Source of the DNA: Bimastos eiseni
Lineage: Eukaryota; Annelida; Clitellata; Crassiclitellata; Lumbricidae
Length of the DNA stretch: 64,000 nt
Direction: 5' to 3'
Assembly: GCA_959347315.1 (NCBI GenBank)
Contig: OY365817.1
Span: forward strand, 250,501 to 314,500
In this document: positions 651-63,846 of the stretch, piece by piece
Numbering within the stretch: position 1 is the stretch's first letter
Layout: each line of letters starts with the position of its first letter
Made by a program: the position numbers and the translations under genes
Notes under the pieces: generated by a model
Database searches by the model: none
Told to the model about the DNA's origin: nothing
Seen by the model: only the letters and a program-made list of their open reading frames with translations

Positions 651-800
651 GCATGGCTACCGACGGTTAAATTCGATCCCTGTAACTTGGAAGCATTCGT
701 TCATACTGTGCTTGTATTTATACCGCAGTTTGTAAGCTTGAAATTAAACGAATATTATCATTATCATTGTCAATAATTAAACATAATAATGTTCTCACAG

Positions 801-936
801 CACCATTCTACTTAATATCCCAGGAGTATACTTGTTGGAACTACTGGTGGGATTTACTGGTCTGACCGTCGTTGCTTATTACTCTCGCATCCAATGCGAT
901 CCTTTGGCAAATAACGAGATCTACAACGAAAATCAA
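801..936 (+). CDS. Gene A exon 8
   Basis: Acceptor TTCTCACAG precedes it and donor GTAATT follows CAA. It enters in phase 2 and leaves in phase 0. It encodes the TM8 helix around LLELLVGFTGLTVVAYYS and the loop ending NENQ. Same length (136 bp) as the gene B counterpart 48103-48238. Confidence 0.88.
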
Positions 937-6900: not shown

Positions 6901-9900
6901 TAAACTTTTTTGAAACGTTAGATATAAGAGGAGGAGAAAGACAGCGCCTTAAACGTGGTTGTTAGGTCGTGGACAAACCAAAGGACAGCTAGCTGCTGCT
7001 GGTAGTATACTGATGAAGAGACAACAGCAATAGCAGTACTGTATGCTGTTGAGCGGGACATTATCTCCAGAGGTACATGTATTCACGTGTTCAAAGCCAA
7101 GGATTCCATGTCTGGTGATTTCTAAAAGGTTGAAAGAAGAGTTTCTCGCCTGAAAAGTGATGCCGCCAGTATCGCACAATTGGTTAAAGTTTTCGGTGAC
7201 ACCGTGACAAACCTTGATAGAACGCCTACTGACCAGTTACACGTAACCAACAAATGATATGTTGATGACATCGGCACTGCAACAAGACAGCGCGCAATTG
7301 AGCTGCTTTGGTCATAATATGCGAATCAGAAGGATGCAGCATTGAGAACAGCTTGTCTCAATTGTTTGAAAGCTTTAGAAGGAGGACAGATTTAAGCAAC
7401 TTCTTGACGAGGTTGAGAAGTATCGTGAAATGAAGGATGACGCAAGTCTGTAGGCGAGTCGATTAACGAAGATATTGAAACAGATTTAGTCAAACAAGGC
7501 CACCAAGCGGCAAAAGAAGGATTTTTAAAACGGCTGCAAGTTTCAAAGTCAATTTAGAATTAAACTCTGTATGCTTGACTGATTCGGCGTTGCATGGCTC
7601 CTCTTACTCCGACGACCACTCGAAAAACCGTTGAAGCTTTATTTTATTTAGGCGATTTTGTGCCCGTTGTTTTGATCCCAGCCTCGTGAGTGGTGGCTCG
7701 GCTGGGGTGCAAACGATTTTTGCACAACGCATGGCCCCACATGCTTACTGAGAAAAATAACGTTAGCGAGCTTCTACTGTGGCGTGGCCCAAAATCCCCT
7801 TGTGAGGTATGGGTAACCCATGGTGATCTTGGAGGCGATGGACAATGCGTGCCTGCCGGGAGGGATGATGCTTCTATGGTGTAGTGGTCCAAAGAGCTTC
7901 CATAGCGCCGTGGTCTAAAGTACCTATATGACGCGTGGGGGCTTGGTGATGGGTAGACTGCATATCATGAAAGCACATTCACTTTTGCTCATCTAAAATA
8001 CTTGTTTGCTCAATTGAAATTCATGTTAGCCATCTTCTGTCCATCTACTATTCATATTTTCCCAGTCTGTAATTCATATCTGCCAATTCGAAATGTACGT
8101 ATGCCCTAGCTATTATTCGTGTTTTCCCATCTGAAATTCATATTTGCTCAATTGCAATTCATATTTGCTCAAATGAAATTCATATTTGCCTGTCTGAAAT
8201 TTCATGTTTGTCCATCTGAATCCCAGAAAAACTTTTTAGATTCAATCCCATGCCGGCCTTGACATCTCATTGTTTTTATGGTAATCTGAAACATTGTCCC
8301 GATGATGATATGTTGGATAGATTTAATGATTATTCATTTTCAGTGAATTAGGCTGCTTTTAAACTTTATCAGAAGAGTTTGGAAAAGCATGAGTGTGTTG
8401 TTATTCTGTGTAATTAATTCCATATTCCGTTATAATTCAGATAGCATGGGCGTTAGATGGATCGGTGGTTGGTCCACTCTTTGGCATCTTCCTCTTGGGT
8501 GGAGTTTCAAGAATCGCCAATTGGAAGGTTTGAATCTAAGCAACGCTTCACTTGTCTTTCATACTGATGAATACTGATTTTTGTGAGTTGAATTTGTTCT
8601 AGCAAGTTATTACGCATTAAACTGCACAAAGGTTCTCCGCTCAGGCTGTGCAAAGGGCCTCGATAGATCTTAAATTTGTGTGGTTTAGTTACTAAATAAG
8701 ATGTAGACGGATTTTGCAAGAAAATGGCTACCGTCTTCAAAAGATTCTAGCTGCGCGTTTGGCAATCATTTGCTTTCCAATCATCGTGCTTTTATTGTTG
8801 TCATTTATCAAGGGAGCCTTGACTGGTGCGGCTGTTGGTATGATCTTGAGCATTTGGCTGGCAGTGGGATCGATGAGTGTCCCAAATAAATATCCTTCTC
8901 TGCCACCAATCTCAGTCAACTGTTGCATGGATAATTGGAATGCTACCGTCTTTGGATCAATTGATGGTAGCAACTGTGCTCATACCACCCAACCAGCAAA
9001 TGACTCCCTCGGAAAGCCGTCTAGTGTAAGTTCATGTGAAATGGCATTCCAGTATGTATGTCCGTCTATCTGTCTGTCTGTCTGTCTATCTGTCTGTCTT
9101 GTGTAGGTATGATTGTGTCGGAGCATTACTTCAACGTCTTTTAGGAATCTCCCTATAGATAGAGCTTTCGGTAATTCTTCATCATCTTCATCATCACGCA
9201 TCATGGGCACTGTTCCCGTTTTATTATGTCCGATGTCATTTTTATCAGGTTCTTACACTGTTGGCTGTCTGAAACCGAGTTCGTTTCTCCTGAAGTTGTT
9301 TTTTACCTCGGTCAACAATATCATCCAGCCACTCTGTGTGGACGAACTCTTTTGTCTGAACCACCATCCTGCTGAACATCACTGTTTTGTTGTCGTTGAT
9401 TCTACACTTGTGGCCGACTAGCCCCAGCTTTCTCTGAACCACGTTCTGCATCAGATTTGATTTTCGTTGACACAGCTCCTAGTTGCTAATTCACATTATC
9501 CAACCTATTCAACATTGGAACTTTCCTGTAGCGTTTTCTCTCAAAGGCCATGATTCTCTTTTCGATGTCTCTTTTTATTACCCATTTTTCAGTAATTGGC
9601 AATCGAAAAATTGGCGGATGAAGAAATGAATTTGTGTTGTACGATTATTAGGGTGTGAAATTGTTTGCATTTATCATTCATGCGACTCCAGATAATTGTT
9701 CATATGCATTTATGCATACACACTCATGCATGTATGATATGATGTGATGATGGACTTCGTAACTTCTTTTGTTCTCCCGATATTAAATATTAGTTCAATT
9801 TAAATTCATGCTTTTCTTCAATACGTCATAGAAACATTGTGTAGCGCCGTTGCTTGCCGTGTAAGTAATTATAGTCACGTAAACTGACATAAGAGGATGC

Positions 9901-11518
9901 CAGTGACAAGATAGTAAATCAGATGTAGCGTAACAAAGTCATTCGCAGGAACGGTCAGTCAGATGCGATCTGTCAAACGTCACAGTCAATATTGACAATT
10001 TTACAGCCTATGGTATAATGTTCGAAGTAGAAAATATCGAGTAGAAATTTTTTCCTACGTGGCCCATAATTTCACACGTTCGGAGTTCGCTAGTGTTGCC
10101 GTTGAGAAAGTAAGTGAAGTAATGTGGTTTGAATTTGGTAGCTGTGAGACTATCAATGTATGCAACAAACGCTCATGATGAAAAAGGGAAAGAAAATTAA
10201 TCATTCTGGTTCGACATTGATCGGATGGTAGCCCCATTGACGATCTCGAGTAATTTATATAAATTTAGTTCATTATAGAGAACTATTTTGTGTGTGTTTC
10301 GTATCTGCAGACAGAGTTTCATGGTCTGGAGAAGTTTTACTGTCTGTCCTATTTGTGGTACATGCCCTTTGGACTGATGACAACGTGGATAGTTGGGATG
10401 ATCGTTTCCTTGATATTCAGTAGGTTATCACTTCATACAAGGCATTTGAGCTCACGCCGCTTAACCGTGGTCATCGTTGACTCATCGCTAAGATTTCTTT
10501 GCTACGATTTTTCTTAGCTACTGAAATTATGCCGTGAGAATTATACGTTATGCAGTATCAATTATGTGCTAAAATCATTCGCTGCTTGTCGCTGAAGGTT
10601 TAATGTGGCTGCAATTTGGACCAATGTAGTTTAACTATTGGACAAAGGATGCCTTAGCCCAATGTGGTGTCTACAAGATATAAATATCACCAGTTATGAG
10701 TCGTTGCTTATTGCAATGACAGATTTAGATGATGATAGAGAGAAACGTTGCGGTCAAATCGTTTACCTGAACAGAATTCTCACTCTGAGTCATTTCGTAG
10801 TAATAATTAAATTGATTCCACCTTACATACAGCACTTTCTAATTACATTGTAAATACGGCGTAGGATATGCAACTGCACTATAAAGAAATTTAGTCTGAC
10901 TTAGTGTTCCATAGGCGAACGTTCAACCCGCTACGCCACTACATCTTAGTCTGCGTACTTCGTCCCTGAAATTTCTTCCCGATAGCGAATGTTCCATTGG
11001 CAAGCGCATCGAGTGACTCAATCGTGTTTAATTAATGCGTCTGAATTGCATATTGAATTAGCTCAGCATGCAGATGACATGTCGCAAATAGCTGGTAATG
11101 TTTATATTGAATGTCAGCATAAAATGTAACAATATATGAGTTTAAGCCAAAGGTTAAGCGTGTGCCGTCAATAATCACGTTGTCCTAGAAATGTACAAAA
11201 GAACGTTTTGAAAAAAATCATATCTCGCCTGAGCTTTCCGTTCGCGATCTTGTTCAGACAGATTATGGACTTCACATATTCCCCCTATCTGTAATTATAT
11301 GAGATTAAGTGACCTGTGGTTGCATGCCTGATGTTTCTTGCGAATTGTTAGGAGACAAAGTCTTGGAAGACGCCGTGGATGACAGTCTTCTCATGAGGTT
11401 CAGGAACTGCAGCTGCAGAAGTCAAAATGAGAAAGATAATCAGGCACAACCAGAAAAGACAAGCAACGGGACCTATTTCACTACAGTGCCCAAGAAGGGT
11501 ACCGAATGTGGCCCGTAA
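801..11518 (+). CDS. Gene A: SLC5-family sodium/solute symporter (SMCT-like), 3' part, exons 8-15
   Basis: This is the 3' half of a multi-exon membrane transporter gene; exons 1-7 lie before the window. Joining 801..936, 2087..2175, 3273..3385, 4670..4740, 8441..8527, 8813..9025, 10311..10419 and 11352..11518 gives 327 uninterrupted residues. Every junction is GT/AG and the phases agree with gene B. The protein runs from the TM8 region to the C-terminus and includes the serine-rich stretch GALSSISSGLSGSA, where other SLC5 proteins place Na2-site residues. It also contains GPLFGIF and a Cys-rich extracellular loop with NAT and NDS sequons. The family couples Na+ to uptake of small carboxylates or vitamins at the plasma membrane; the substrate here cannot be read from sequence. 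The tail differs completely from gene B and ends at a stop where gene B has a splice donor. Paralogue of 32833-62045. Confidence 0.88.
1130..1890. repeat. Intron 8 block with about 35-bp repeats, shared with gene B
   Basis: This block contains two to three degenerate units of about 35 bp (AGAAG...TTGATGAAAA...CTTAAAT) and then sequence that aligns across its length to 49650-51180 in gene B. Gene A has one copy of the block where gene B has about two. No coding potential was seen. Confidence 0.6.
2087..2175 (+). CDS. Gene A exon 9
   Basis: Acceptor GGTTTCAG, donor GTAAGG, phase 0 to 2, 89 bp. It encodes LLPHFVMTVFRNAPGF and the start of the TM9 helix ending GGAL, part of the ion-binding core in the SLC5 fold. 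Confidence 0.88.
2176..3272. other. Intron 9 of gene A, no further feature
   Basis: About 1.1 kb, aligning along most of its length with the 0.9-kb intron 9 of gene B (51359-52264). Short open frames on both strands are not conserved between the copies. Confidence 0.6.
3273..3385 (+). CDS. Gene A exon 10
   Basis: Acceptor TTGACAG, donor GTACTG, phase 2 to 1, 113 bp. It encodes SISSGLSGSAANCWEDF, the serine-rich end of TM9 and the following loop. The same donor sequence is kept in gene B. Confidence 0.88.
3722..4500. mobile_element. Probable non-autonomous DNA transposon
   Basis: Gene B intron 10 is continuous here (52612-52640), whereas gene A has about 770 extra bases. The extra piece has inverted ends sharing GACGTCACGC (3733-3742 and, inverted, 4463-4472), and T/C-rich tracts near CCCCTACCCC recall ends seen in invertebrate DNA transposons. 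CCTAAA flanks both sides and may be the target duplication. No transposase frame was found. Confidence 0.5.
4670..4740 (+). CDS. Gene A exon 11
   Basis: Acceptor ATTTGCAG, donor GTAAGT, phase 1 to 0, 71 bp. It encodes the hydrophobic segment VLVFGIVATSVAFLAAF. Only one residue (Met for Ile before PGPISQ) differs from gene B. Confidence 0.9.
5265..5600. repeat. Palindromic repeat element
   Basis: Outer parts are inverted: TCCGAAGGTTCGATAG at 5273 and several CGAACCTTCGGACTATCGA-like units at 5530-5590. Inside, AATCATG/TGGAAGCTGGATTG (5365-5395) is inverted at 5405-5500. The inner unit is the same about 35-bp repeat found at 6398-6690 and in intron 8. It is a small foldback or MITE-like structure in intron 11 of gene A. 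Confidence 0.5.
5640..6320 (+). pseudogene. Ty1/copia gag fossil
   Basis: Read across at least two frames, the sequence gives WDFKMELLL, ELWKT, VEDNQLHLIRKQTTA, ASLGEPLA, IAALETRPEEDLTTELVKSK and a CCHC-type zinc knuckle. This is the usual order of a copia-type Gag. It carries several stops and frameshifts, and the second knuckle Cys is replaced by Arg. No protease, integrase or RT follows, and no LTRs were recognised. It lies in intron 11 of gene A and is absent from gene B. Confidence 0.7.
6398..6690. repeat. Inverted clusters of about 35-bp repeat
   Basis: 6415-6485 carries units in one orientation (ATCAATCCAG...CATTCAGG). 6545-6690 carries them inverted (GATTGATGAAA...CCTAAATGG), period about 35. 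With 5335-5500 they flank the copia gag fossil on both sides. Confidence 0.5.
6960..7560 (+). pseudogene. Unidentified coding remnant
   Basis: I do not recognise the protein. One frame from about 7020 to 7400 reads AVLYAVERDIISRG, KVERRVSRLKSDAASIAQLV and DAALRTACLNCLKALEGGQ, interrupted by four stops. Two frame changes then continue with RFKQLLDEVEKYREMKDDA and ESINEDIETDLVKQGHQAAK before a final stop near 7560. The alternation of charged and hydrophobic residues suggests a helical or coiled-coil protein. It looks like a decayed gene or transposon ORF in intron 11 of gene A. Gene B has no counterpart in its intron 11. Confidence 0.45.
7975..8235. repeat. Minisatellite of 21-22-bp units, intron 11
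   Basis: About twelve degenerate units resembling ATTCATATTTGCTCATCTGAA. The homologous array in gene B is at 56035-56240 with fewer units, and the flanking intron sequence also aligns. The array therefore predates the duplication and has since changed in copy number. Confidence 0.75.
8441..8527 (+). CDS. Gene A exon 12
   Basis: Acceptor TATAATTCAG, donor GTTTGA (weak, but the same in gene B), 29 codons in phase 0. It encodes IAWALDGSVVGPLFGIFLL, the TM11 region with the family's GGP/GPL-type motif. Confidence 0.88.
8813..9025 (+). CDS. Gene A exon 13
   Basis: Acceptor TTTATCAAG, donor GTAAGT, 71 codons in phase 0. It encodes TM12 (GAVVG-like, SIWLAVGSMS) and a large extracellular loop with a CC pair and NAT and NDS glycosylation sequons. 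It is one codon shorter than gene B and lacks gene B's NCT sequon. Confidence 0.88.
9058..9105. repeat. TCTG/TCTA microsatellite
   Basis: Tandem TCTG and TCTA tetranucleotides in intron 13 of gene A. Gene B has a shorter, decayed version near 57365-57395, so the seed predates the gene duplication. Confidence 0.9.
9206..9640 (-). pseudogene. LINE ORF 3' end fragment
   Basis: On the minus strand, broken frames read like the C-terminal end of an endonuclease/reverse-transcriptase ORF, including QRKLGLVGH and WLDDIVDRGKK, a tail common in invertebrate LINEs. The insertion interrupts sequence that is continuous in gene B (near 57500), so it is specific to gene A intron 13. Its upstream limit is approximate. 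Confidence 0.7.
10311..10419 (+). CDS. Gene A exon 14
   Basis: Acceptor TATCTGCAG, donor GTAGGT, phase 0 to 1, 109 bp. It encodes TEFHGLEKFYCLSYLWY and the last membrane helix TTWIVGMIVSLIF (TM13). Confidence 0.9.
11352..11518 (+). CDS. Gene A exon 15, terminal
   Basis: Acceptor CGAATTGTTAG as in gene B; it enters in phase 1 and reads RDKVLEDAVDD, a Cys-containing cytoplasmic stretch, then a tail ending in TAA at 11516. After about 25 shared residues the tail no longer matches gene B. The position aligned with gene B's GAT/GTAATT donor has no GT here, so reading through to this stop looks unavoidable unless the downstream GTAAAC at the stop codon acts as a donor. No counterpart of gene B exon 16 was found before 12799. 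Confidence 0.75.
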
Positions 11519-11840: not shown

Positions 11841-12888
11841 CTCATTGGTCTTCCTAAGGTTCGTCTCTCTCTTTCACTTCTCTTCATTCCATAGGCTACT
11901 TACGACAGCTGCTCGCTTTCCCCGTTTCTCTCGCATCTCTACCTTTATATTTGATGAACTTCATTGACGCCCTCTCCATGATCGGATACAATTTTAAATT
12001 CTTATTCTAATCTTCATGGCTCAGCTGGATCTTACTCCGTAATACGTAATACTTTGGCCTCATTCTGCTTCCTCCCTCCGTCCATTTCGCTCGTCTCTTA
12101 CACGACCTCTCGGGGTTCCTCGTTCTAGCACAGCAATTGGCTCAGTCTCGATTCCTTGCATCAATTGGCCCCTGTCTCTGAAATGCGCTCTCTCCTTCGT
12201 TCTAAAATTCTATCTGGCAGTCTCTCATCCTCTTTCGCTTTTCTCAAACCTGCTTCTTCTCGCGTGCCCTTGCGCATTGGTAGCGCTTCAGAACGGTTCA
12301 CCCTACTAAAGGCGTTCTACAAATGCTTAAAGAGACTGCGATACAGATGCCACATTTAAACAGCAAGGCATTATACAAAGCGCTGACAATTTTGAACCTC
12401 GTTACAGGCTACCTGAGCCAGCAACAAAGGTGCAAAGCATTGGCGCAAACTATTCAATATATATTTTTCATTTGTAGGCCTACTGTATTTCCGTTATCAC
12501 CGTCATATATTTATTATTATTGTTATACTTAGACGTATGTCAGCAATATAAGCATTACATTAAACTTTGGATGAACCATTAATATGCGTCAGATCTAGTG
12601 CTTCGCTTTCTGCCTGAACCGGTGACAGTTGAGCCTATTGATTATGAGATGAACCACTGACTAATGTCATGTAGATCGAATGAGTGTATACATACTTCAC
12701 ATGCACTCGACAGCTGAGAAGTGTCAATTGACTGACAATAATAACTGTTAGCGGTTCATGAGTATCAAAACGTGGACAAAGATTTTGATTGGTGTCTACA
12801 GGGTGGGCCAGTATAAATGAACAATATTTGCTAGTTATTTATACTGAATGTGTCAAATTAAAGATACTTCACTCTAGTATTAGTTTAA

Positions 12889-15379
12889 CCCTCAATGGGT
12901 CCTTGTCAGAAAGTGACGTTCCAGGTCCTTGGGGTTCAAACTGCACCCCTATTTATTTGAGAATACAAATCAAGGATATGCTCTGTTTACTGGTAATGGA
13001 ATACCATGTATTTTATATAAGCATAGTACTGTTCAATGTTTTCTTAAAATTACACATCTAAAACGTCCAGTTACATACATTTGTCACACAGTACATTTGA
13101 TACATTGACAGAGTGTGCCGGACAAGCAGGCCTACAGCACTTATTGCAGAATTTGCGTGTCAAACTGTCAAACTGTCGCGGACACAGATGACAACGTCCC
13201 TGAGTCTTCTTCACTTTAGCTGGTACCACAGTTCCTGCTTCGAATTCTCCAGAGTCCAGTTCTATAAGTTGGATTGCATCCATGATCGGTCTTCTGAGCA
13301 GGGCTGGCTTGTCCAAACGTCTTCTTATAAGTGGCTCGACAAGAGACTCTCCGAGACTGACGATGAATTGGCGACGGCGTATCGCTTTGGACGACTTGTT
13401 CCAGTCAGGGTTATTGCGCATCCAGACCACGAAACTGGCAATGGCAGCTGTGTCAAGCATGTTGAAGAACAGGACCATTGGCCACCTGTTGATCTTTCGT
13501 TTACAGGAGTAGATGCACGCCAGATGATCCATGTTATCTACACCGCTCTTAGTTGCGTTGTAATGAAGGATGATCTCTGGTTTTTGTTTCAGACCATCGA
13601 CAGCCTTGTCGTGATGCATTGTTGACAAAAGAATGACCGATTTTCCCTTTTTTGGGACATATGATACCAAAGTCTTGTTTCCATCAAATGCAAAGATCGA
13701 AAAAAATTCGTCTCTGTTTTTTGCTATCATGCTTAGAGGAATGTCTCGTTTGTTCTTGCGCATTGTTCCAACGTAGGTCATACCCTGAGTAAGCAATTCT
13801 TCTGCCAGCGCAACGCCTGTAAATAGGTTTTCTCCCACTACATTCCGTCCACTCTTGTACCAAGGTGATACCATTGCTTTCACAATACGAGCTCCCTGAT
13901 CGTGATCTCGAATTTCATTTGGCTGCCGCCCAAGATAGACCTCTGCGTTCAGTGGATAAGACGTGGCACTGTCACAGCACCACCACACCTTTATCCCATA
14001 TTTGGCGGGTTTGCTGGGTATATACTGCCTAAATGGACATCGCCCTCTGAAGGGGACAAGTTGTTCGTCCACTGTTATGTCTGTTCCCGGGATATAGTAT
14101 TTTCGTAATCTTGCAACAAACATTGTCCACAGATCTCGAATAGCAGCCAGCTTGTCGGTAGCACGCCGTTCTTCGCGAGTGTTTTTGTTGTCGAATCTGC
14201 AATAGCGCAAGATCTGTTTGAAGCGCTTTAGACTCATGGTGGCGAGAAAGATTGGTCTGCCATATTTTCTGGACCACAATTCTTCGAGTGACTCTTGATT
14301 GCCTCGATAGACGCCTGCTAATAACAATAGGCCGATAAATGCTTCGCATTCTGTCCAGTCGAATTCCTTCCAGCGTTTTTGGTTATCCTGATGAATAGAG
14401 TTCCATTCTCGATAACAACGTTCTGCTTCTCGGTTCGTTTCCTTTATGACTACAGACAGAATCTCTTCGCACAAGTAAAGTTGAAATACCTCTTTGAGTG
14501 AATCTTTGTGTCCTTCGGATGTTACTCCGGGTTGCTGCCGGATAATGTCCTGAACTTGCCGACGGTGAATTCCAGGTGGCTCAGTAGTCCATTGTCTGCC
14601 TGTTCAATCCACAATCGTGTTGGTACAACCAATGAGCTGCTCTGCAGCTGTGGGTTGTGTTGGATCTGCAGTATTGTGTGCGCCCCGTCCACGATAATAA
14701 CCATGGCGTGCTCCACGTGTACCTCTTGTAATTCCTCTTGCAGTACCAGCTCTTACAGGACCTCTTCCTCTTGTATTCCTTGTAGTAGATGGTTCATTTA
14801 CCTGCTCTTCGTCAGACGGACTGACATCTTCTGATTTGTCAAATTCCTCGGACACATGATCTTCGTCATCAGAGGCGGGACCAACTTCAGGCAAATAATC
14901 TCCATCTTCAATATCATCGGCATCCCCTTCAGCTACATTGTCTTCATCGATTTCTGAATCCTCTTCCATAATCATTCGAAGAGCTTCAGCTGTGGAATAC
15001 CTAGCCATGGTGTTATTTATTTTCTAATACTTGAAATGTAAGCAAAACAAATTGGCTGACTTCTAAAAAGGTCAAACTAATATCAGGAAATATCAAAAAT
15101 ATAAAAACATAACAAATTATTGCAGTATTTAGCACGAATTACCTGAATTTGTTCATCGCATCAACGTCATAATTTTGGGGTGCAAATTGCACCCCCGATG
15201 AACATATGCTGGCAAAAATTGACGTAAACTCTTTTGTTATCGTTTTATGCAGGTCTATAGGCAAAAATGGTACACTAATAATGTCCTAGAAGATAACTGC
15301 TGAAATTTTACTAATAACACGTGAGTCGCCAAAGAAACGGCCGTGGGGTGCAAATTGCACCCCAAGGAACCATTGAGAG
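12889..15379 (-). mobile_element. piggyBac element inserted in the mariner inverted repeat
   Basis: A 2,491-bp element between TTAA sites (12885-12888 and 15380-15383), the exact target of this superfamily. The inverted ends begin CCCTCAATGGGTCCTTG and CTCTCAATGGTTCCTTG. Nearby are subterminal GGGGTGCAAATTGCACCCC palindromes at 15171-15199 and 15343-15363. Removing it restores a mariner terminal repeat that matches the opposite end, so it arrived after the mariner element. Confidence 0.92.
13071..15008 (-). pseudogene. piggyBac transposase with one nonsense codon and an altered catalytic residue
   Basis: One frame of 646 codons from ATG at 15008 is broken only by a TGA at 14606-14604. The N-terminus (about 130 residues) is acidic, then rich in RG repeats. 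The DDE domain follows (DDE_Tnp_1_7 type). Counting from the internal Met at 14474, the first catalytic Asp is in TVDEQLVPFRGR (residue 136). The second, normally Asp in a CDNFFTS-like motif, is Glu in GENLFTG (residue 215, codon 13832-13830). The third pair is in GVDNMDHL (313 and 316). The C-terminus holds a Cys-rich zinc region (CHLCPRQF...CNKCC...CDKCM). The enzyme cuts and pastes DNA at TTAA. The copy is young, but the stop and the D-to-E change make activity unlikely. Confidence 0.9.
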
Positions 15380-15399
15380 TTAAACAAGTCGAATTGGTA

Positions 15400-15864
15400 C
15401 TAGTGTTAAATTTATGTAATTGTTTGGGAAAGCTCCAGCTGCCATATTTTTTGTCGTTTGTGATGCAAAATGGCGCCACTGAAAGACTTTGATCGAGTTT
15501 TGATAAAAATGTTGAGAACTGATAAGGGATTTGATTTGTTTCAAATGAATAAAGAGTTTCCTAACAGACGATAAAATAAAAACTTTTGGCAGTTCTGCCC
15601 AACTTCGAAACCGCAACAGAAACCATGACACTTAGCGAGAAATGTTTTCTTCCTTACAGAGGCCGTCCAGGTGTCGAATCTCGTGCTTTGCTAATTCGAT
15701 AATAGACACGATCGTTTCGTGTGTTTGTATGAGTCTGTAGCGTAAATATGTTATCATCGCAAAGCCATGCCCTTCAATTTTATCAAATCCATGCACTGCA
15801 TCAGACCCATGCATGCTTCCAGTTGCTTCTTTTCATCAGACTCGAAGAGCTGTTGGACTTTACG
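15400..15864 (-). pseudogene. mariner-like transposase, part downstream of the hAT insertion
   Basis: Directly after the hAT element, the minus strand reads LRKVQQLFESDEKKQLEAC, the expected continuation of the helix-turn-helix part, then shifts frame. Further on, MVSVAVSKLGRTAKSF resembles a block of the catalytic domain. Stops and missing length show internal deletion; the acidic catalytic residues cannot be assigned. Confidence 0.5.
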
Positions 15865-16299
15865 TAGACGAACAGGGGTAGACTGGGCGGCCGGGACACC
15901 GGGGAGCAATCCCGGTGGGCCGGAAGGAGGCATGAATCCCAGTGGGCTGCCAGGATCAGTGCTGTGATATTAAAGAACCACTACCAAACCAAAACGGCGG
16001 GTAATATTGCTCTCACTAGATGTGTCAGCGGCCTTGCAGCCAGCGGCTGGTTCTAGCATAAATGTCCTCCACTATTTTTATTTTTAGTCTATTTTAGTAT
16101 CTAGCCAGTAACACGGCAGTCGCGAAATCAACAGCTGCAATGCTAGAATTGACATCTGCCCCTCTAGTCTCTTAGATTCGCTACTTCCGATGCGCCTGCT
16201 TTGATAACAATTCTTTATTATTGTTGGTTACATAGTAATTAATATTAAATTAATAAAATAATTTACGATTGTGAGTGGTATAAATTTGAAACGTAAACG

Positions 16300-16681
16300 G
16301 TGGCGCAAAGAAAGTAAGAGATAAGCTAAAAACTCTGGTTAAAGATGGAAGTAAATGCCAAAGTCTAGTCGATTTAATTAAAGCTACTGAAATTTTTAAA
16401 AAAGACACCATTTTTGCATTTTTCTAAAAAGAACACCTCCAATAAGTACACAACCCGAAGAAAATCAAGATGATGACAACAGTCAGCATTCAGTATTGCC
16501 AGCAAACTTCATTCCCACCTTACATTTAGAAACTGAGTTAACTGACAACACAATATCTATAAAAACAACGCTGGCAGATCTAAATCCTCAAAATGACAGT
16601 GCAGAAACTTTAGTAATTGATTATATATCATTTGCGAATGCTTGGCTTGCTGAACCAGCTTCCTCAACCCTGCACGACTAG
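16300..16681 (+). pseudogene. hAT internal coding remnant
   Basis: One frame gives RDKLKTLVKDGSKCQSLVDL and a second frame TQPEENQDDDNSQHSVLPAN, running open to TAG at 16681. The arrangement recalls the N-terminal region of ZMYM1-like hAT proteins, but no BED finger or catalytic block is present. The assignment rests mainly on position inside the hAT ends. Confidence 0.4.
16458..16560 (+). repeat. Direct repeat, left copy (see 22631-22727)
   Basis: About 100 bp including CAGTATTGCCAGCAAACTTC is repeated on the far side of the gypsy element with a few small indels. It lies within the hAT coding remnant. Confidence 0.8.
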
Positions 16682-16682
16682 A

Positions 16683-17094
16683 ATATAAATAGACAAGACC
16701 AGTTGTTGTGATGATTTGATAGTTGATGCAGAGGGTAGCTCAGTCAGACCCGTTGGGCGGACATACGGTAATGACTGTAGTCGCTGCGTGTTAGAGTTGA
16801 TTCGATGTGTTGACTATCTGCTGATGTAACGTTGAATAAAGACAAGTTCGTTGATCAACGTATTGACTTCGACTATAATTCAGTGCCTTTCGATCTCGTC
16901 GCAGTCTAGTAAACCTGCGCCAGACCGGGCAGGTCTTATCCTGCGGACGATCAAGAATGCGGGAAACCTCGGCCGTGCTCGGCCTCCTGGGGTACCAGAA
17001 AATAGAGAAGGGAGCCGAACTTTCCCAGAGCTTTGGTCGAATCCTGCAACTGCTTGGCCAACGCCCTGTGTCTACCTGATAGAGGTTCGCCACA
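16683..17094 (+). repeat. gypsy 5' LTR, 3' portion
   Basis: TATAAATA at 16684 and AATAAA at 16835 sit in promoter/polyadenylation order, and the block ends ...TTCGCCACA at 17094. The last 130 bp resemble 55685-55811, an isolated LTR. The upstream (U3) part is missing. Confidence 0.6.
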
Positions 17095-17098
17095 ACTT

Positions 17099-17115
17099 TG
17101 GTACCAAAAGTGGGG
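17099..17115 (+). other. Candidate primer-binding site
   Basis: TGGTACCAAAAGTGGGG lies 4 nt after the LTR end and begins TGG, as needed to pair with a tRNA CCA end. The preceding CGCCACAACTTTGGTAC is repeated 43 bp downstream (17130). The tRNA was not identified. Confidence 0.45.
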
Positions 17116-17199
17116 TGAATTGTTTTCAGCCGCCACAACTTTGGTACGCGGAAAGACTGCTGATGGCGGACAACGGAACGATCATCTACACGCTGCTGA

Positions 17200-18401
17200 A
17201 TGTCGACGCGCCGCCTATCGATAGTTTTATGCCGGCCGGGCCGGAAAGAAGGCCAAGCACGCTCTATATATGTAGCCGACTACTGGAGAGCATCGACTTC
17301 GACAATCCGAGGCCTAATGGAGTCGGGACCGCCTAAAAATGCGGATGAACCAACTCTGATGCCGAAGCTGCTGGAGGGCGTCAGGGTTCTGCTCTGGCAA
17401 TGACTGTCACAGATGAAGCCGTTCAAGTTCGACGGGACTGGGTCGCTTGAATCGTTCTTGGCTCAGTTCGAAGTGTGTGCCAGACACAACCGATGGACCG
17501 CCATGGACCGAGTCGACTATCTACTCTGCGCTCTGGAGAAGGCCGTGACCCAGCTGCTGTCGGACTTTGGGGCTCGGCCGGATGTGACCTACGAGGAGCT
17601 TGTCGAGAGGCTGCGCCAGCGGTATGGGACGGAAGGCCAAGCCGAAACCGTCCGTGCCCAGCTCTACTACCGACGCCAACGAACGGAAGAAAGCCTGAGC
17701 GACCTGCGGCATGAAATACGTCGCCTGGTCGTCCTGTGCCAGCCAACGAGACGACCGAAATAATCGCGAAGAAATCTTTCCTGGAGGCCATGAGAGATCG
17801 TGATCTTTCACTCAAAGTTCGCGATCGAGTGCCGATGACCCTAGACGAGGCGTATCGCACTGCGCGTCGTTTGGAGGCCTATCGGGCGACGATGGACTCT
17901 GACGACCGAAGGCAGCCGTCGAACCGGGTTCGAGGAACTCAACAGACCGACGAAAGTCCGCAACTACAGGACTGGCTGGAGCGTTTCCTGACCAAGCAGC
18001 AGAAAGAACAGAGGCGATGGCAGCGGGACTTGGAGGCCAAATTCAACCGAATGCACCGGAAGCTGACGAACCGAACGACAAAGCCTGACGACCAGGGTCT
18101 GGACGTTCGTCCTGCTGGTAGCCATCGGCAAGGACGGACGGGGACCTACACTCGGCGATCCATGCCGCCTGACGACCGGGGTCTTGTAGTTCGCCCTGCT
18201 GGTGATCATCGGCAAGGACGGACGGGGCCCTGCTTTCGCTGTGGCCGGCTCGGACACCTCGTCCGCGACTGCCGATGGCGGTCGTTGACCACACCACCAG
18301 GCCGAGGGCTCCAAACCGAGCGACCAGCAACGCGGTCTACATTCGGGGAACGATCGACGGACGCCAACATTTCTGCTTGGCCGACACTGGGTCTGAGGTG
18401 A
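17200..18401 (+). pseudogene. gypsy gag remnant
   Basis: The frame runs from 17200 through an in-frame TGA (17401) into MKPFKFDGTGSLESFLAQFE, the start of the retrotransposon Gag core. It then shifts frame near 17740 to continue KSFLEAMRDRDLSLKV. A 28-residue segment is duplicated in tandem (18084 and 18168, period 84 bp) just before the zinc knuckle CFRCGRLGHLVRDC at 18230-18271. Gag would form the particle and bind RNA. Confidence 0.8.
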
Positions 18402-18580
18402 GCCTCGTGCCTGCGTCTGCTTCGGTAGTGGTACAGATTCATACCTGTAATCGTTTCTTGATGGCTGCTAACGGGTCCAACCTTAATGTACTCGGGGAGG
18501 TTAGGCTTTGGGGCCGGCGCATTATTCATTGGCCGCCAACGCATCCCCTTGGTGAGGGGCAACGGGTCCATTTGGTGTAG
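18275..18580 (+). pseudogene. gypsy aspartic protease
   Basis: The catalytic motif LADTGSEVSLVPAS is present. The frame overlaps the end of gag in the -1 frame, as expected for a gag-pol frameshift. It ends at TAG 18580, and the link to RT contains further stops. Confidence 0.75.
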
Positions 18581-18632
18581 GCGAGTAGCGGTCGCTGAGG
18601 ACGTAGTTATTTAGCCAAAATGTCAGAGTGAT

Positions 18633-19662
18633 GTGCCCGTCCGTACAATGTACGGAGACTTGGCTTCTGTAGCGCCGGCTTGGATGACTGAGGCCCAGGA
18701 AATTAAACCGTGCGTTCAACTTGCTCGAGTCGTGTTGGGAGATAGCGCCTACACAACTCGAATGCGAGTAGTTAATTTAAGTGACGACCCTATGCAGTTC
18801 GGCAAAGATCAGGTGATCGCGGGACTTCACCCAGAGGAGGTTGAGATAAGTCGGGAGGCCGATGTGGGCCGATGCTCGGGCGGTCAAGTGCCGTCGTACG
18901 AAGGAATAATGTCCGACCTTCCGGAGGAGGTGTCGCCTGATATCCGGACGCGATTGGGTGAACTGCTGCGGGAGTTTAACGATGTCTTTTCTGAAGAGGA
19001 ACTAGATCTTGAAAGGACGTCGGTCCTGAAGCATAGGATTGTCTCGGGGAACGAGCCCCCCGTAGGGCAGCCCCTACGTAGACAGTCGCTTCTCCATCAA
19101 GTGGCGATCGATGAACAGCTGAACAACTTGCTGGCGGCCGAGAGAATAGAACCAGAGGCCAGCGAATGGTCGTCTAATGTGGTGTTGGCCCGCAAAAAGG
19201 AGAGGACCTTACGGTTTTGCATAGACTATCGACAATTAAACGAGCGGACGAGGAAGGACTCTTACCCGCTTCCTCAAATAGACGAGTGCCTGGATGCCCT
19301 AGCTGATGGTGGGTGGTTCAGTACGCTGGACCTACGTAGTGGTTACCACCAGGTGGCTTTGGACCAGGACGACGCCACCAAACCGGCGTTCATGACTCGT
19401 AGGAGTACGTTCCGCTGGAAGGTGATGCCCTTCGGGCTCTGTAACGCGCCCGCTACATTTCAGAGGCTCATGGACATCGTCCTGTCCGGACTTAATTTTA
19501 GGCCTGTCTAGTTTATCTTGACGATGTAATTATTATCGGGAGGACGACAGAGCAACATCTTGAGCGATTGAGATTGGTATTAGAGCGCCTACGGGGAGCT
19601 AACCTGAAGCTGAAGCCGAGTAAGTCCCATATGCTACGTAGGACCGCTAATTTTTTGGCCAT
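18633..19662 (+). pseudogene. gypsy reverse transcriptase
   Basis: RT blocks FCIDYRQLNERTRKDSYPLP, LDLRSGYHQVALD and MPFGLCNAPATFQRLM are intact to a stop at 19511. The catalytic VYLDDVIIIG follows one frame away at 19511-19540, so a 1-nt change lies near 19500. A second 1-nt change near 19655 leads into the next part. Confidence 0.85.
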
Positions 19663-20496
19663 GTGGTGACCCCAGAGGGCATAGCTGGGGATAACGCAAA
19701 GATCCGCGATGTGGTCGAGTGGTTGGTCCCGCAGCGCTTGAAGGGTGTGCGATCTTTCCTTGGACTTTGCTCGTGTTATCGCAGATTTATTCGGGACTTT
19801 TCGATGCTGGCGTCTCCCCTGGTTGAGCTCGCTAAAAAGGGCCGAGCTTTTGTTTGGGATGACCCCTGCCAGGAGGTGTTTGATCATTTGAAGCGTTTCT
19901 TAACGACTACGCCGGTCTTGGCCCTGCCTAAAAACGAAAAGACCTATGTGTTAGACTGCGATGCCTGTGATATTGGAATCGGTGCAGTGTTGTCTCAAAG
20001 GATAGACGGGGTGGAAAGATTGATTGTCTATGAGAGTAGATTGTTGTCGCCGGCCGAAAGAAATTATTGCGTGACCCGAAAAGAATTGCTAGCGGTTGTG
20101 TACCTTGTGAAGCTGCAAAGAAAGTACCTTCTTGGGCGATCGTTCTTGCTGCGAACGGACCACGCCGCCCTGCAGTGGTTGCAACGTGATCCGGAGCCGA
20201 CTGGCCAACAAGGTCGATGGTTGGAGAAGCTCGCAGAATACGAATTCCAGTTGATTCATCTTCCTGGGAAGAAGCACGGCAACGCTGATGCGATGTCGCA
20301 GGGTCCTTGCCGACAATGTGGGTCGAAGGAATGGAGTATGACCACTGCGATCGTCGAGGCGTATGACGGGGCTCAACCGGGCTCAGAAGTCGGCGCAATA
20401 GAGCGTTTAGCTGGGGCGCAGCGTGAGAATCCCGATCTGTGTATAGTGATAAATTGGATTGAAGACGGAGCTCAGCCTGCGGACCATTTTGCTTGA
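19663..20496 (+). pseudogene. gypsy RT connection and RNase H
   Basis: SFLGLCSCYRRFIRDFS is the RT thumb/connection. RNase H follows with acidic residues in LDCDACDIGIGAVLSQ, TRKELLAVVY and LRTDHAALQWLQ, and the common end HGNADAMS. Stop at 20494-20496; the next domain is in another frame. Confidence 0.85.
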
Positions 20497-21763
20497 GAGC
20501 GAGGCTGTGAAGGTGCTCTGGCATCAAAGGAACCGGCTCTATCTACCTGACAGCGGTCTTTATAGGAATACGTCGGATGGCTTGGAACAAGCCCTGGTTT
20601 CCAAGCGGCTGAGGGAGGAGTACATGTCGTTCGCACATACAGGGTTGACCGGGGGCCATTTGCTTATGCGCCGGACCTGCTGGCAAGTGAGACGCCGAGG
20701 TTACTGGGTTGGGTGGTCCCTGGAGGTGAGGCGTTTCTGCCGACAATGTGCGCCTTGCAAAGGTACCACCATGGGCGTCCGCGCCGACAGGGAGCAGTGC
20801 GGAGAACCCTGGGAGAGCTTGAGCATCGACATTATTGGTCCTCATCTTCAAAGTTGAAGGGGGCACACTTACATTCTGACCGTGATGGACAACTTTACGA
20901 AGTTTGTTGAGGCTATAGCTATGACTAACCAGAAGGCGATCTCGGTAGCCCGAGCCTTAGTCGATAATGTAATTGTCCTGTACGGGGTCCCGCTGCAGAT
21001 ACTAACAGATCAGGGGACAAATTTTGAAGCGAGTTTATTCCAGAATTTGTGCCGGCTGCTAGACATAGATATGATCCGGACCTCTAGCTATCACCCTAGT
21101 GGGAATGGTTTAATTGAGAGGTTCCACAGGACCCTTAATGCCATGTTGGGTAAAGTCCTAAGCAGCCATCAAAGAGACTGGGATGGTTTCTTGCCCCATG
21201 TCCTGGCCGCCTATAGGGCGTCGCCGCACGAGGTGACTGGCTTTACACCGAACTTCCTCATGTTCGGTCGGGAAGCCAGGGCACCGATAAATCTGGTCTA
21301 CGGGAGACCGCCTGATGTGGAGCTCACAGACTCTACTTATCCGAGTTATGTCCGAAACTTTGCAGATCGGATGGAGGCCTCCTACCGTATGGTGCGGGAG
21401 CAGCTGAAGGTCACTGCCGAGCGTCAGAAACGGGCGTATGATCCACTCGTCCGTCCTGCGGACTTCGCACTAGGAGACCGCGTATAGTATTTTAAGCCGC
21501 GTCGCTACCAGGGCCGCAGTGCAAAATGGCAATCCATATACACAGATCCCTGGTTCGTGGGGCGTCGTTGTGGGCCGGTGAATTACAGCATACGGAGGTC
21601 CGCGAACTCGCGTCCACTCATCGGCCTTGTGGACAAACTGCAACCATGCGCCAACGACGGATTGGCTGAAGGTGGCGGACCGACGATGGCCACGCTGGCC
21701 GTCGCTGAAGTTCCTGAGAGGCGTCCTCAGCGAGTGAGGCGCCACCCTGCTCGCTTCCGGTAA
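20459..21763 (+). pseudogene. gypsy integrase
   Basis: The zinc-binding HHCC region (HTGLTGGH...CRQCAPC) is followed by the core, with catalytic Asp in SIDIIGP, Asp in LTDQGTNFE and Glu in GLIERFHRTL. One frame holds it all, with in-frame stops at 20855 (TGA) and 21485 (TAG). The C-terminal part ends at 21763. Integrase would insert the cDNA; this copy cannot do so. Confidence 0.85.
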
Positions 21764-22244
21764 GCGATGCGGTAGCACGAACGAGACTTCTGGTGAGGCT
21801 ACACGACTATGATGCATGTGGCCGATATGTTATGATGTGTCAATCATGTGTTTAATTTGTGTATTACATGTTTTTAGTTGTGCTGTGACTCTGAGTGCAT
21901 CTGAGTTATGGTTTTGACTGATTTCTTTTGTGCTGTGATCGTATGCTTAGGCATGACGGATGTTTTAGTTGTGATGGGCCACATGTATTTTGGTGTGGTG
22001 GCCTATGTTTTGATATGTGCTTGGACTTGTGACGGTTTTATCATATTGCGCTGTAGAGAGAGAGAGATTTTCCGCTTTTATTTCTGTGCTGCATAATTTT
22101 CCGGGATGAGGGCATCCCTATCAGAGGTTGGCGGGGGGAACATCGTAGCATCATGCTACGAGGTGCCATTTGCCCTGGGTCAGCGGTGGTTTCTACTGCG
22201 TGCGATTATTCGCTATGGTAATGTATTGCAGCCTGAGAGTATTT

Positions 22245-22495
22245 TCTGTTGGGCGTGTTGGCCCGTCTTGGACGGCGCGAGCCGGGTCCGGCTGGCCTGG
22301 CACGGACCGACTCTCGCCGGAGTGCCAATATCGGCACGATCCTTCCTTCCTGGGCCCGGCTCGGCACGGCTGCTGGCCCGGCACGAATCACCCTCCCCCT
22401 CACGTGGCAGCTTGGCACGGCGTGCTGGCCCAGCACGAACCGAATTCCCCCTCACGTGCCGGCTCGGCACGGCGTGCTGGCCCAGACTACCTAGC
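22245..22495. repeat. GC-rich tandem repeat, about 52-bp period
   Basis: About 2.5 units built around GGCTCGGCACGGC and CCCCTCACGTG, ending near 22490. It lies between the integrase and the hAT end, where the gypsy 3' LTR is expected, so it may belong to that LTR. Much richer in GC than the flanks. Confidence 0.65.
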
Positions 22496-22630
22496 AAGTT
22501 GATTTATAGCTTCAAAAACATTCTTGATTATATTTTTTTACAAATTATATTTGCTGTATCATTTTTGTTATTAATGCTGTTATTTGTTAAGTGACCCGTG
22601 ATGTTGAAGGCCTCAGGCTTGGATGGATGA

Positions 22631-22727
22631 CAACAAGATGATGGCAACAGTTACAGTCAGCATTCAGTATTGCCAGCAAACTTCATTCCCACCTTACACC
22701 ATTTTAGAAACTGAGTTAATTGACAAC
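22631..22727 (+). repeat. Direct repeat, right copy (see 16458-16560)
   Basis: Second copy of the repeat, placed between the gypsy 3' end and the hAT right end. It is too diverged to be a simple target duplication. It may reflect an internal duplication in the hAT element, or recombination between two hAT copies. Confidence 0.8.
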
Positions 22728-22809
22728 AGGAAAATAAAATTAAGATAGAGCCGCTTTTTATTTCTTTTCCCGGGCCGCTCGAACACCCCAGTCTACCTAT
22801 GTAGACGAA

Positions 22810-23060
22810 ATATCATCTTTAGCAATTCTCCAAACGGTGCTAATTGAAATGCCTGTTTCGCGCTGAATTAGCTGAGGGATTTGATTGTACCCAGGTTATC
22901 GTCTTGACTACAAATTAACTCTGACACACGAGCAGCGATAGCGGGTGTTCGAAATGATTCGCGTGGTTTACAACTCGTAGTCCCTGTTTCATCAGTTCTT
23001 TGCATCCGTTTAAAGGTATTTTTATTCGGTCCTCTTTAAGGAAAACTTCAATCATTTGAA
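22810..23060 (-). pseudogene. mariner-like transposase, N-terminal helix-turn-helix part
   Basis: The minus strand reads ESFRTPAIAARVSELICSQD and, in another frame, RETGISISTVWRIAKDDIS. This is a typical paired helix-turn-helix DNA-binding region of Tc1/mariner transposases. A stop and a frame change separate the two. The continuation lies on the other side of the hAT insertion. Confidence 0.65.
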
Positions 23061-23325
23061 ACGTATTGAATTTATTATTAAGTCGAGAAATTCAGATCAA
23101 ACCTCGATCATCGTTTTTCACGACACAAACGACAACAAAATATGGCAGCTTCATCTTTCCCAAATATTTACTTAAAATTAAAGCTAGTACCAATTCGACC
23201 TTTGGAGCTAATGCTATAGTGAAATATCTTTAATTTGATTCATTGAGTATAACTAAAAAAACATATTGGTGAAGTTATAATTATATGCGAGCAAAGTCGG
23301 TTCATTTGCGCTGGTCAACCCTGTA

Positions 23326-25018
23326 GATTGCAACGGGATATTTCTCGGAAATAAACTTTGGATGAACTTTAGATAATAGCCTGGCTGAATATGACTCAGC
23401 TCTAACGCCATCGCTTTTCTACGAATGCTGCATATAAATATTTGTGGTAGTTAAATAATAATACGTATATTGAGTAAATATAAAATATATTGCAAAACGT
23501 GTTTTATATTGATCTAGCTGATTATCACTTCTTATTTTAACACTAGGCCCTGCATTGTTTCCTCAAAAATGAACCTATGCTGCGTACACTTTACTCAAAC
23601 AGGCTGAGTCTAAGTTAAAACCACTCGTACTTCCAGGTTCAACACTTTTTTATATCAAGACTGCATTCACTGATTTTATCACATAGTGACTATGCTCTGA
23701 AGAAACGTCTTCGGTAGAGCCAACACGCCAATCGTTTGACAGCGTATCTTTTAATTGATCACAAGAGTTTTGATACTTTTTTCAGACATAGCTCACATTG
23801 GCAACCTTGTATTTTTCTAAGGCGTTTGAAAATATTCGGGGCGTCATTTTTTTGTAGAGCGTAGAACATTACACATATATTCGCATCCTAAAAACGTGTG
23901 ATTGGCATCTGGTCTTTTTAAGGCATGTAATAGTTTCTTACAAAGAAAGAGCGAAAGAGAGTATTAGCAGTTGTAATATTATGAAATGCTCGACCGAGGC
24001 TGGTACAGGAGGAACGCATATTAACATTCTATATACGAACTCAGATTTGAATATTCACGGGTACTAAGTTCTGCTGTTCATTGGATGATGTGGTAGGTTA
24101 ATGAATATTCATAACTAGTCACTATTCTGCGAGTAGGCTTTAGATACATACTCCTCTACCACACAGACATCGAGAGCTTCCCCCCATTCGTGCAGTTAGT
24201 GTCCTAAACTTTGGCATTCTGGTATGTCATATAGATCTAAGACAGTTTTAACGTTCGTTATTTACTAAGTTGTTTAGAATAAAATTAACAAAGGATCAAA
24301 AGCTGCTCAATACACAGTTGAAGAACATTATTTGTGCAATGCCATTTGCCAGCATCATTTTCCGATTATAATAGCTCACTTGAAAAATTAAAAACTCTTA
24401 TCTTTCACTAAACTCCTACATCAAAGTAGGTCTGGACTAATAATCTGTATTTGGCTTTAAGCTGCCATTCATTATCGCCAAATATTTCAAGAAGCAAACG
24501 TTACTAAACTAAAAGCATAGCATACATAATAATTAAAATGCCCTGCTATTCAAATGTGGATTCGTCCACTTCGACCAAACACAAAAGAGTTGTTAGGCTC
24601 TAATTGAAATTATAATTAAAATTGTGATTTCACACGAGCAATTGTCTATTACAATTGTTGTTGTTAGAATCTTTTTATAACTAGTAGGCCTACATGGTTA
24701 CCAGCATTATTAACGTGTGTCTTGCAGGCGTGGTTGGTGACGAGCATTTTGATAGAGCTGTAGATATCCAGCTGTTTGAAGGCAAATGAAGAGACATAAT
24801 GAATGTTACAGTCTTCTAATGCACAAGGCGTCAACCAATGACCCAACAAAATCCAAATCGCTATTGTGTCATATAATGCTGCCACTGTACTGTATTACCA
24901 AAAACACGCGACTTTGTGGTTGCGTTGAACTCATAGCCCTTGTTAGTTCATTGCCACATGAATCATCATTAATGATACCAATAAGAGTTTTGTTTCAGGG
25001 TCAATTGAATCATAGCCA
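23326..25018. other. Intergenic, no recognisable feature
   Basis: AT-rich sequence without a convincing open frame, repeat or RNA gene. Short frames (for example 24664-24885) look random. Confidence 0.5.
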
Positions 25019-29804: not shown

Positions 29805-29925
29805 AATCACCGAAGGCGCTGGGCTGTTGTTTGCGAAGGACTTTCTCAAGGTTCCTACACATTAACTGCCTCAGAGGAGGAGATTCGAACCCGGACCCTT
29901 TTAAACAATCGATCACGTCCTATAG
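29805..29925 (-). repeat. tRNA-derived SINE, truncated copy
   Basis: The minus strand contains GGGTTCGAATC, matching a Pol III B box, then a body with ACTTTCTCAAGG inverted as in the two fuller copies. The A-box part is missing or decayed. Confidence 0.55.
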
Positions 29926-32832: not shown

Positions 32833-33171
32833 ATGGAGTCGTTATTGAAGTGGCCGGACTACTTGATTCTGGTCGGTTTTCTGGTCACCTCGCTGGCCAT
32901 TGGTCTGTATCATTCACTGACCGGAGGCAGACAGAGGACGACAGCGGAATTCCTAATGGCTAACCGACGTCTTCAAGTCCTTCCCACAGCCATTTCATTG
33001 CTCGTCTCCTTCCAATCAGCCATCTTGGTGCTTGGAATGACTGCGGAGATATATAGCTACGGACCTCAGCAGATGATTTTCGGCGGACTTGGCTTTGCTA
33101 TCAATGCAATTCTTGTCGTGAGAATAATCATTCCCTGGATCTATCCGCTACAATTAGTCAGTATAAATGAG
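32833..33171 (+). CDS. Gene B exon 1
   Basis: 113 codons from the first Met, chosen because the frame upstream has no extension matching the family. It holds TM1 (residues 10-28), the linker FLMANRRLQVL, TM2 (49-71, core Na+-site helix) and TM3 (81-105). Donor GTAACT, phase 0. Confidence 0.88.
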
Positions 33172-63423: not shown

Positions 63424-63846
63424 TTGACAAAATCGACCACACAAGTCAATTTCATTGCAAAGATAGCATATATTTCTCTGACTATATCACTTGAGTTCGT
63501 TAAAAAAATGATTTTCCTCAAAGAAAAATACAAAATAATTAATTTGAAGCTTCCTCTTTCACCAAAAAATCTACTACAAGAAATAGTGACTCAAAATCGG
63601 GTCGATCTGTTTCCAAATGTGTTTATTTCCTGGAAAATTTTCATGACGTTACCTATATCTGCTGCAGATGCCAATAGATCATTAGGTTACCAAAAAAGAA
63701 CTAAGAAATGCCTCCGTTCCACGATGGGTCAGCAGCGTCTTAATGGATTAACTATGCTAAGCATTAATTTTAATATAGCAAGAACTTTAAATTATCAAAG
63801 CATTATCGAAACATTTGTAGCTTTGAAAATGCAAACTATGATTTGA
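63424..63846 (+). pseudogene. hAT transposase C-terminal dimerisation domain
   Basis: 140-codon frame whose second half (residues about 60-135) reads VDLFPNVFISWKIFMTLPIS, AADANRSLG, LRSTMGQQRLNGLTMLS and ARTLNYQSIIETF. This is the hAT dimerisation region as in ZMYM1-like hAT proteins, with the usual AERSFS motif changed to ANRSLG. The catalytic part is not present upstream. Confidence 0.75.

Follow-up and report, generated by a model that had tools for sequence, protein, structure and literature searches.

A nest of decayed mariner, piggyBac, hAT and gypsy elements in a contig of Bimastos eiseni

The stretch analysed here, a window of 64,000 nucleotides from the lumbricid annelid Bimastos eiseni (GenBank assembly GCA_959347315.1, contig OY365817.1, positions 250,501 to 314,500 of the forward strand), holds at positions 12797–23325 a stack of elements from four transposon superfamilies: mariner, piggyBac, hAT and gypsy. 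Nested transposons are common, and the stack differs in nothing of kind from the nested clusters resolved by tools such as REANNOTATE, in which the order of arrival is likewise taken from interruption (PMC2672092). The region was read and compared with itself and with the remainder of the window, and 60 first-order Markov resamples of a 12-kb region served as controls. Two elements, a piggyBac (at TTAA) and one with hAT ends (leaving an 8-bp target duplication), entered a maT-like fold-back mariner at different points, and a gypsy fragment with one-sided pieces of its long terminal repeats (LTRs) lies within the hAT ends, bordered by two copies of a hAT coding segment. The features of the first three elements, in order along the window, are as follows.

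12797–12798, no strand: mariner target TA, left copy (sequence read, Markov resampling)
12799–12884, plus: left mariner end, forming the outer portion of the inverted arm (matches the right end in inverted orientation)
12885–12888, no strand: piggyBac target TTAA, left copy (sequence read, resampling)
12889–15379, minus: piggyBac element of 2,491 bp with subterminal GGGGTGCAAATTGCACCCC-type repeats (sequence, self-comparison, Pfam, resampling)
13071–15008, minus: piggyBac transposase frame with one in-frame TGA (14604–14606) and the second catalytic Asp changed to Glu (sequence, Pfam, protein alignment)
15380–15383, no strand: piggyBac target TTAA, right copy (sequence read, resampling, join test)
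15384–15583, plus: inner portion of the left mariner arm, which repeats the 5' region in inverted form (self-comparison, protein match)
15579–15870, minus: mariner transposase residues 118–215 (numbering of the relative P0121), broken, up to the fold-back point (protein match)
15865–15872, no strand: hAT target duplication TAGACGAA, left copy (sequence read, resampling)
15873–16621, plus: hAT 5' end and N-terminal coding sequence (match to the relative P0140)
16457–16564, plus: left copy of the hAT segment duplicated at 22626–22739 (self-comparison)
22626–22739, plus: second copy of the hAT N-terminal coding segment (self-comparison, match to P0140)
22740–22801, plus: hAT 3' end (end comparison)
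22802–22809, no strand: hAT target duplication TAGACGAA, right copy (sequence read, resampling)
22810–23323, minus: right mariner arm, with the inverted end and transposase residues 30–112, broken (protein match)
23324–23325, no strand: mariner target TA, right copy (sequence read, Markov resampling)

Target sites and ends of the nested elements

The mariner ends, CAGGGTGGGCCAG... and its imperfect inverse, lie inside the TA pair, those of the piggyBac (alike at 14 of 16 positions) inside the TTAA pair, and those of the hAT (alike at 13 of 15) inside the TAGACGAA pair. All three pairs of target sites thus stand where a first-pass annotation of this DNA had placed them, and the arrangements of the TTAA and hAT types were rare in the resamples. 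A TTAA pair with ends alike at 13/16 or better arose in 2 of the 60, and an 8-bp repeat with hAT-type ends alike at 12/15 or better in just one, rising to nine when 11/15 was allowed. The real region has two TTAA pairs of this quality, the second one (12858/23230) lying within the mariner arms. Arrangements of the TA type were frequent, appearing with ends alike at 18/25 or better in 15 of the 60 resamples (ten in the real region, mostly within the arms) and with ends at 12/16 or better in every resample. Since the TA arrangement is therefore weak alone, the mariner call rests on the long inverted arms and the coding match. A 24-base pattern of the mariner end, drawn up from both ends and hence matching them by construction, was found at two sites in the 64 kb, both of them these ends, and in none of 100 shuffles (up to 3 mismatches). 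The four superfamilies named in the same annotation were also recovered, the mariner by a coding relative, the piggyBac and gypsy by Pfam, and the hAT by its ends, its duplication and a relative.

The mariner and the two joins within it

A read-through of the mariner pieces, used as query, yielded 19 mariner relatives among 43 candidates, with helix-turn-helix and DDE_3 matches under the Pfam cut-offs, the best of them, P0121, being matched in pieces (best expectation value, E, 2.7e-26). Residues 1–38 of P0121 are found inverted at 15470–15583 on the plus strand (71%, E=3e-11), facing the main copy that ends at 15579; being opposite to the main copy, they show that the left side repeats the 5' region in inverted form. 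The transposase match stops at residue 215, and the second catalytic Asp, residue 253, falls in the lost part. The spacing from the second to the third catalytic Asp, a region also missing from the window copy, is 37 residues in all three relatives measured, which is the signature given for maT (PMC5490172). Taken without its inner elements, the mariner measures by arithmetic about 1.09 kb, and it lacks the mark of an autonomous member, a full transposase gene flanked by differing 5' and 3' halves. The element is a maT-like, non-autonomous fold-back derivative, both ends of which resemble the 5' end. It shares the TA target, the CAGGGT ends, transposase homology and the loss of the catalytic end with Tc1/mariner elements of the maT-like (DD37D) type and their short non-autonomous derivatives, and differs from maT-like elements in carrying the 5' region with residues 1–38 at both ends and in its long, diverged arms. 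The two best-conserved arm pieces (49 nt and 63 nt, both 86% alike) differ by 14%, so the fold-back looks old. As an alternative, the arms could be the unusually long terminal repeats of an autonomous element, reaching into the frame, which later underwent an ordinary internal deletion. Repeats of about 460 bp are indeed described for aphid LTIR elements related to maT (PMC5490172), but here the transposase frame starts within the repeat on both sides, which is unexpected for a terminal repeat, and we regard this origin as unlikely.

The piggyBac frame matches Pfam DDE_Tnp_1_7 (E=1.9e-72), and residues 1–627 of its relative P0001 match it in a single stretch of 631 columns, at 91.6% identity, across the one TGA; over a part of 510 amino acids, 478 of the 507 aligned residues are the same as in P0001. 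In addition, the solved piggyBac transposase 6x67 is matched by a profile built from relatives. At the second catalytic position the window copy carries Glu, as against Asp in 11 of 11 aligned relatives, and a motif search in 120 proteins found Asp there in all 84 with a recognised motif. The piggyBac catalytic triad is D, D, D, and the window element, which departs from it, is a dead copy. With piggyBac elements encoding a PGBD4-like transposase it shares the TTAA target, the CCCT-type ends and DDE_Tnp_1_7, whereas the internal stop and the Glu in place of the second catalytic Asp set it apart. Its left end (12899–12931) has 26 bases more than the right one, bounded by repeated GTCCTTG.

Removal of the piggyBac and one TTAA left the mariner arms collinear, the alignment running over the join with just one gap of 1 nt close to it. 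In this comparison of the two arms, which stands in, from within the window, for the alignment to other genomic copies that the first-pass annotation had proposed, the alignment joined at TTAA scored 155; no shifted join among 40 scored higher, one tied (right cut +4), and the best of 200 random right halves reached 79. These results support that the mariner was present before the piggyBac, which entered it at TTAA.

For the hAT, a single relative was found, P0140 (E=4.6e-31; 4.5e-31 with a padded N-terminal query), whose Pfam match is a zf-C17orf113-type zinc finger. Its residues 12–119 match 16299–16412 and 16439–16621 in two frames, separated by a frame change, and it matches the second copy of the segment at 22631–22699 (E=0.002). 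Of a hAT transposase, only this N-terminal stretch was found in the stack, and the identification is based on the ends, the 8-bp duplication and P0140. Between the two copies of the segment, substitutions amount to 0 in 46 and 1 in 26 positions in two ungapped blocks and 1 in 18 in a third, as compared with the 14% by which the two best-conserved mariner arm pieces differ. The 8-bp duplication, the CAGGGG-type left end and a rearranged interior with foreign DNA are shared with hAT elements, maize Ds derivatives and Ac macrotransposons; filler DNA is recorded in maize Ds-like hAT derivatives (PMC3260210), and the window element differs from these systems in that its cargo is a gypsy fragment. 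With the Hermes target preference nTnnnnAn (PMC10368747), TAGACGAA agrees at the A only. A second hAT remnant, a hAT C-terminal dimerisation domain (Pfam E=2.5e-05), is located at 63505–63846.

Across the hAT, the residues of P0121 follow one another in order and on the same strand, starting on the right mariner arm and continuing on the left one. On the right arm, residues 30–89 and 84–112 match from 23044 to 22809 on the minus strand, with a weak match of residues 6–41 (E=0.008), and on the left arm residues 118–150 and 151–215 match from 15870 to 15579, also on the minus strand. Among the eight of the 19 mariner relatives tested across this join, six matched both sides and two the left arm alone.

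Two of the three nestings thus pass a collinearity test that is independent of target sites. The first-pass annotation had proposed that the mariner came first, the piggyBac and hAT next and the gypsy last; the initial place of the mariner and its two separate later invasions are borne out by both join tests, but the final place of the gypsy is not, as discussed below. The damage differs between the elements, with one stop in 631 columns in the piggyBac, whereas about 205 residues of the mariner contain three stops and no fewer than three frame changes and the gypsy coding sequence is broken over three frames. The piggyBac is the least decayed, which hints at its being the latest arrival; this ranking gives no date, since elements can arrive already broken.

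The gypsy fragment between the hAT ends

The gypsy lies wholly between the hAT ends, as the first-pass annotation had described, and its remnants are as follows.

16673–17094, plus: gypsy 5' LTR remnant, left border uncertain (about 16622–16680), 3' end TTCGCCACA (self-comparison; border by reading)
17095–22143, plus: gypsy internal region with zinc knuckle, reverse transcriptase, RNase H, H2C2 and integrase core (Pfam)
22144–22485, plus: putative gypsy 3' LTR remnant, 5' part only, GC-rich (self-comparison, reading)
22486–22625, no strand: AT-rich 140 bp of unassigned origin between the gypsy remnant and the hAT segment (reading, window comparison)

The Pfam scan of the gypsy interior covered six pieces between 17404 and 21487 and found the domains in gag-to-integrase order, with reverse transcriptase, RNase H and integrase in pol order; the coding sequence is interrupted by stops and spread over three reading frames. 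At its 3' end (17094) the left LTR piece carries TTCGCCACA, and a remnant of a related gypsy LTR at 55484–55811 finishes in the same way. The right piece would start near 22144, after a G-rich tract, and contains a 52-bp tandem repeat broken off near 22485. Self-comparison of the stack revealed no LTR pair, and no overlap of the two pieces was detectable (score 30, against a mean of 25.1 and a maximum of 33 in 100 shuffles). As neither outer LTR edge was found, no target duplication could be assigned to the gypsy. The element is a fragment and not a whole gypsy; it has the zinc knuckle, reverse transcriptase, RNase H, H2C2 and integrase of a Ty3/gypsy retrotransposon in order, and differs from one by the absence of an LTR pair and of an assignable target duplication and by its coding sequence in three frames. 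The gypsy lies, moreover, between direct copies of one hAT coding segment. The AT-rich piece has no other match in the window, and a stretch resembling a hAT end (22481–22495), either by chance or as an inner hAT end, stands at the border of the GC-rich and AT-rich pieces. The insertion of the gypsy as a copy of its own RNA was considered and set aside, a terminal repeat common to both ends not being detected.

Because the LTR pieces are truncated and show no detectable overlap, no target duplication can be assigned and hAT coding copies stand on both sides, the earlier claim of a separate, last insertion of the gypsy is left unproven. Position inside the ends of another element is no proof of later insertion, and the stack illustrates in this respect both the reach and the limits of target sites as a guide to the order of arrival. 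The gypsy may have arrived with the hAT ends or through aberrant repair. We consider it probable that the whole is a nest of dead elements, in which the mariner was entered twice and the gypsy became trapped in a rearranged hAT interior. The fold-back mariner would have moved through a transposase supplied in trans and then decayed, and the piggyBac and hAT would have jumped by ordinary cut-and-paste. The hAT interior would have been rearranged, most likely by faulty gap repair after excision or because two neighbouring hAT copies were joined; the gypsy piece would have become trapped there instead of being inserted by the gypsy integrase. Both the fold-back mariner and the hAT segment with its second copy illustrate, on a small and checkable scale, how repair reshapes transposons.

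Several observations weigh against this account. Beyond their two best pieces, the mariner arms are less alike (76% over the outermost 38 nt, 71% over 196 columns). At the hAT join, P0121 residues 113–117 are absent (about 14 nt), a gap that corresponds to a small mariner deletion or a later loss of bases, and the rejoined frame is imperfect. The query that found the mariner relatives had already spliced both arms, yet each relative is one unbroken protein. The copies of the hAT segment carry indels of 6 and 4 nt and are 85.6–87% alike when gaps are counted, and the 5' border of the gypsy remnant is placed only to about 60 bp. Finally, the fragment may also go back to a full gypsy insertion followed by deletion of both its ends.

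In this last case, a complete gypsy would have been integrated into the hAT by its own integrase, and the outer LTR halves and the target duplication would have been deleted separately later on. The place of the gypsy wholly between the hAT ends and the gag-to-integrase order of its domains fit such a history, and deletions are common in old insertions. It requires, however, two deletions that left LTR pieces without detectable overlap, and it leaves the duplication of the hAT coding segment next to the gypsy without an explanation; we find it unlikely. Somewhat better placed, though still tentative, is the view that the hAT ends carried or captured the gypsy fragment as cargo, as a macrotransposon or by gap-repair capture, the apparent order of arrival being then reversed or simultaneous. 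If so, duplicated parts of a DNA transposon would enclose a retrotransposon that it had moved or trapped.

The macrotransposon form of this view, taken by itself, supposes that two hAT copies in the same orientation flanked the gypsy elsewhere and jumped jointly, through their outer ends, into the mariner, so that the gypsy arrived with the hAT and not afterwards. Maize hAT macrotransposons are described that excise leaving a modified 8-bp duplication (PMC9910405). In the stack, hAT coding sequence is present on both sides of the gypsy, and a second stretch resembling the hAT 3' end, CCCAGACTACCTA, occurs at 22481–22493 with one mismatch. However, this stretch is possibly due to chance (at a limit of 2 mismatches there are three matches, including the two actual hAT ends, against 0.65 expected, with 3 of 100 shuffles reaching three), and the only inner match in the 5'-end orientation (22122–22136) has 3 mismatches, a quality met seven times in the window against 2.39 expected; we judge this origin less likely than the deletion history. 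Least plausible of all is the derivation of the gypsy from a one-LTR DNA circle opened within the LTR, giving a circularly permuted copy, for although the two pieces represent the 3' part (left) and the 5' part (right) of an LTR, without detectable overlap, and GCACGA recurs at 16672–16677 (by eye) as in the broken 52-bp unit, six bases are weak and the borders uncertain, 16644–16659 resembles the 52-bp unit (13/16, by eye) and would imply overlap instead of a single cut, and an intact LTR of this gypsy family was not found.

Surroundings of the stack and searches for other copies

According to the first-pass annotation the stack sits between two tandem paralogues. Collinear blocks on the same strand do flank it, at 778–11466 and 48081–61087, but their identity as genes is only presumed, since the single frame scanned in the first block (8696–9055) gave no Pfam match. 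A sodium:solute symporter exon was detected at 32827–33258 (22.8 bits, at the Pfam cut-off). An empty mariner site in the duplicated block was considered and rejected, as the block extends only to 11466/61087, which leaves about 1.3 kb between it and the mariner. Beyond the block, flank matches were short or of low complexity (E no better than 0.002), apart from a strong one of 67 bp that is the block's own end. An identical 16-mer, TAAACTTTGGATGAAC, is present on both sides of the stack, at 12561–12576 (222 bp from the left mariner end) and 23352–23367 (28 bp from the right one).

The comparison of 12 pieces of the stack, leaving out the gypsy interior (17095–21779), with the rest of the window revealed no copies other than the opposite mariner arm, the hAT duplicate and the LTR remnant (here at 55602–55811); self-comparison of the whole window adds just one tandem repeat within the gypsy. 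In viral contigs, no confirmed copy was found with the piggyBac relative P0001, the gypsy reverse transcriptase piece or a 20-base LTR-end pattern. Alignments A1 and A2 gave 136 and 76 stretches there that fitted a pattern, none encoding a relative, nor did the 171 stretches for alignment A2 in prokaryote genome contigs encode any, records from the window's own genome being possibly excluded from these searches. Rfam gave no match at gathering scores.

Elsewhere in the window, an array of tandem repeats, each about 64 bp long (roughly 80% alike), extends over 35922–37918, and long palindromes are found at 43473–43605 (90% self-complementary) and 46530–46694 (87%). A reverse transcriptase fragment on the minus strand at 46183–46554 (Pfam RVT_1, E=5.8e-09) probably belongs to a non-LTR element. 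Finally, a dispersed repeat occurs at 29829–29900, 34830–35021 and 56400–56591; it holds a stretch that we take to be like the B box of a transfer RNA, and is possibly a short interspersed element.

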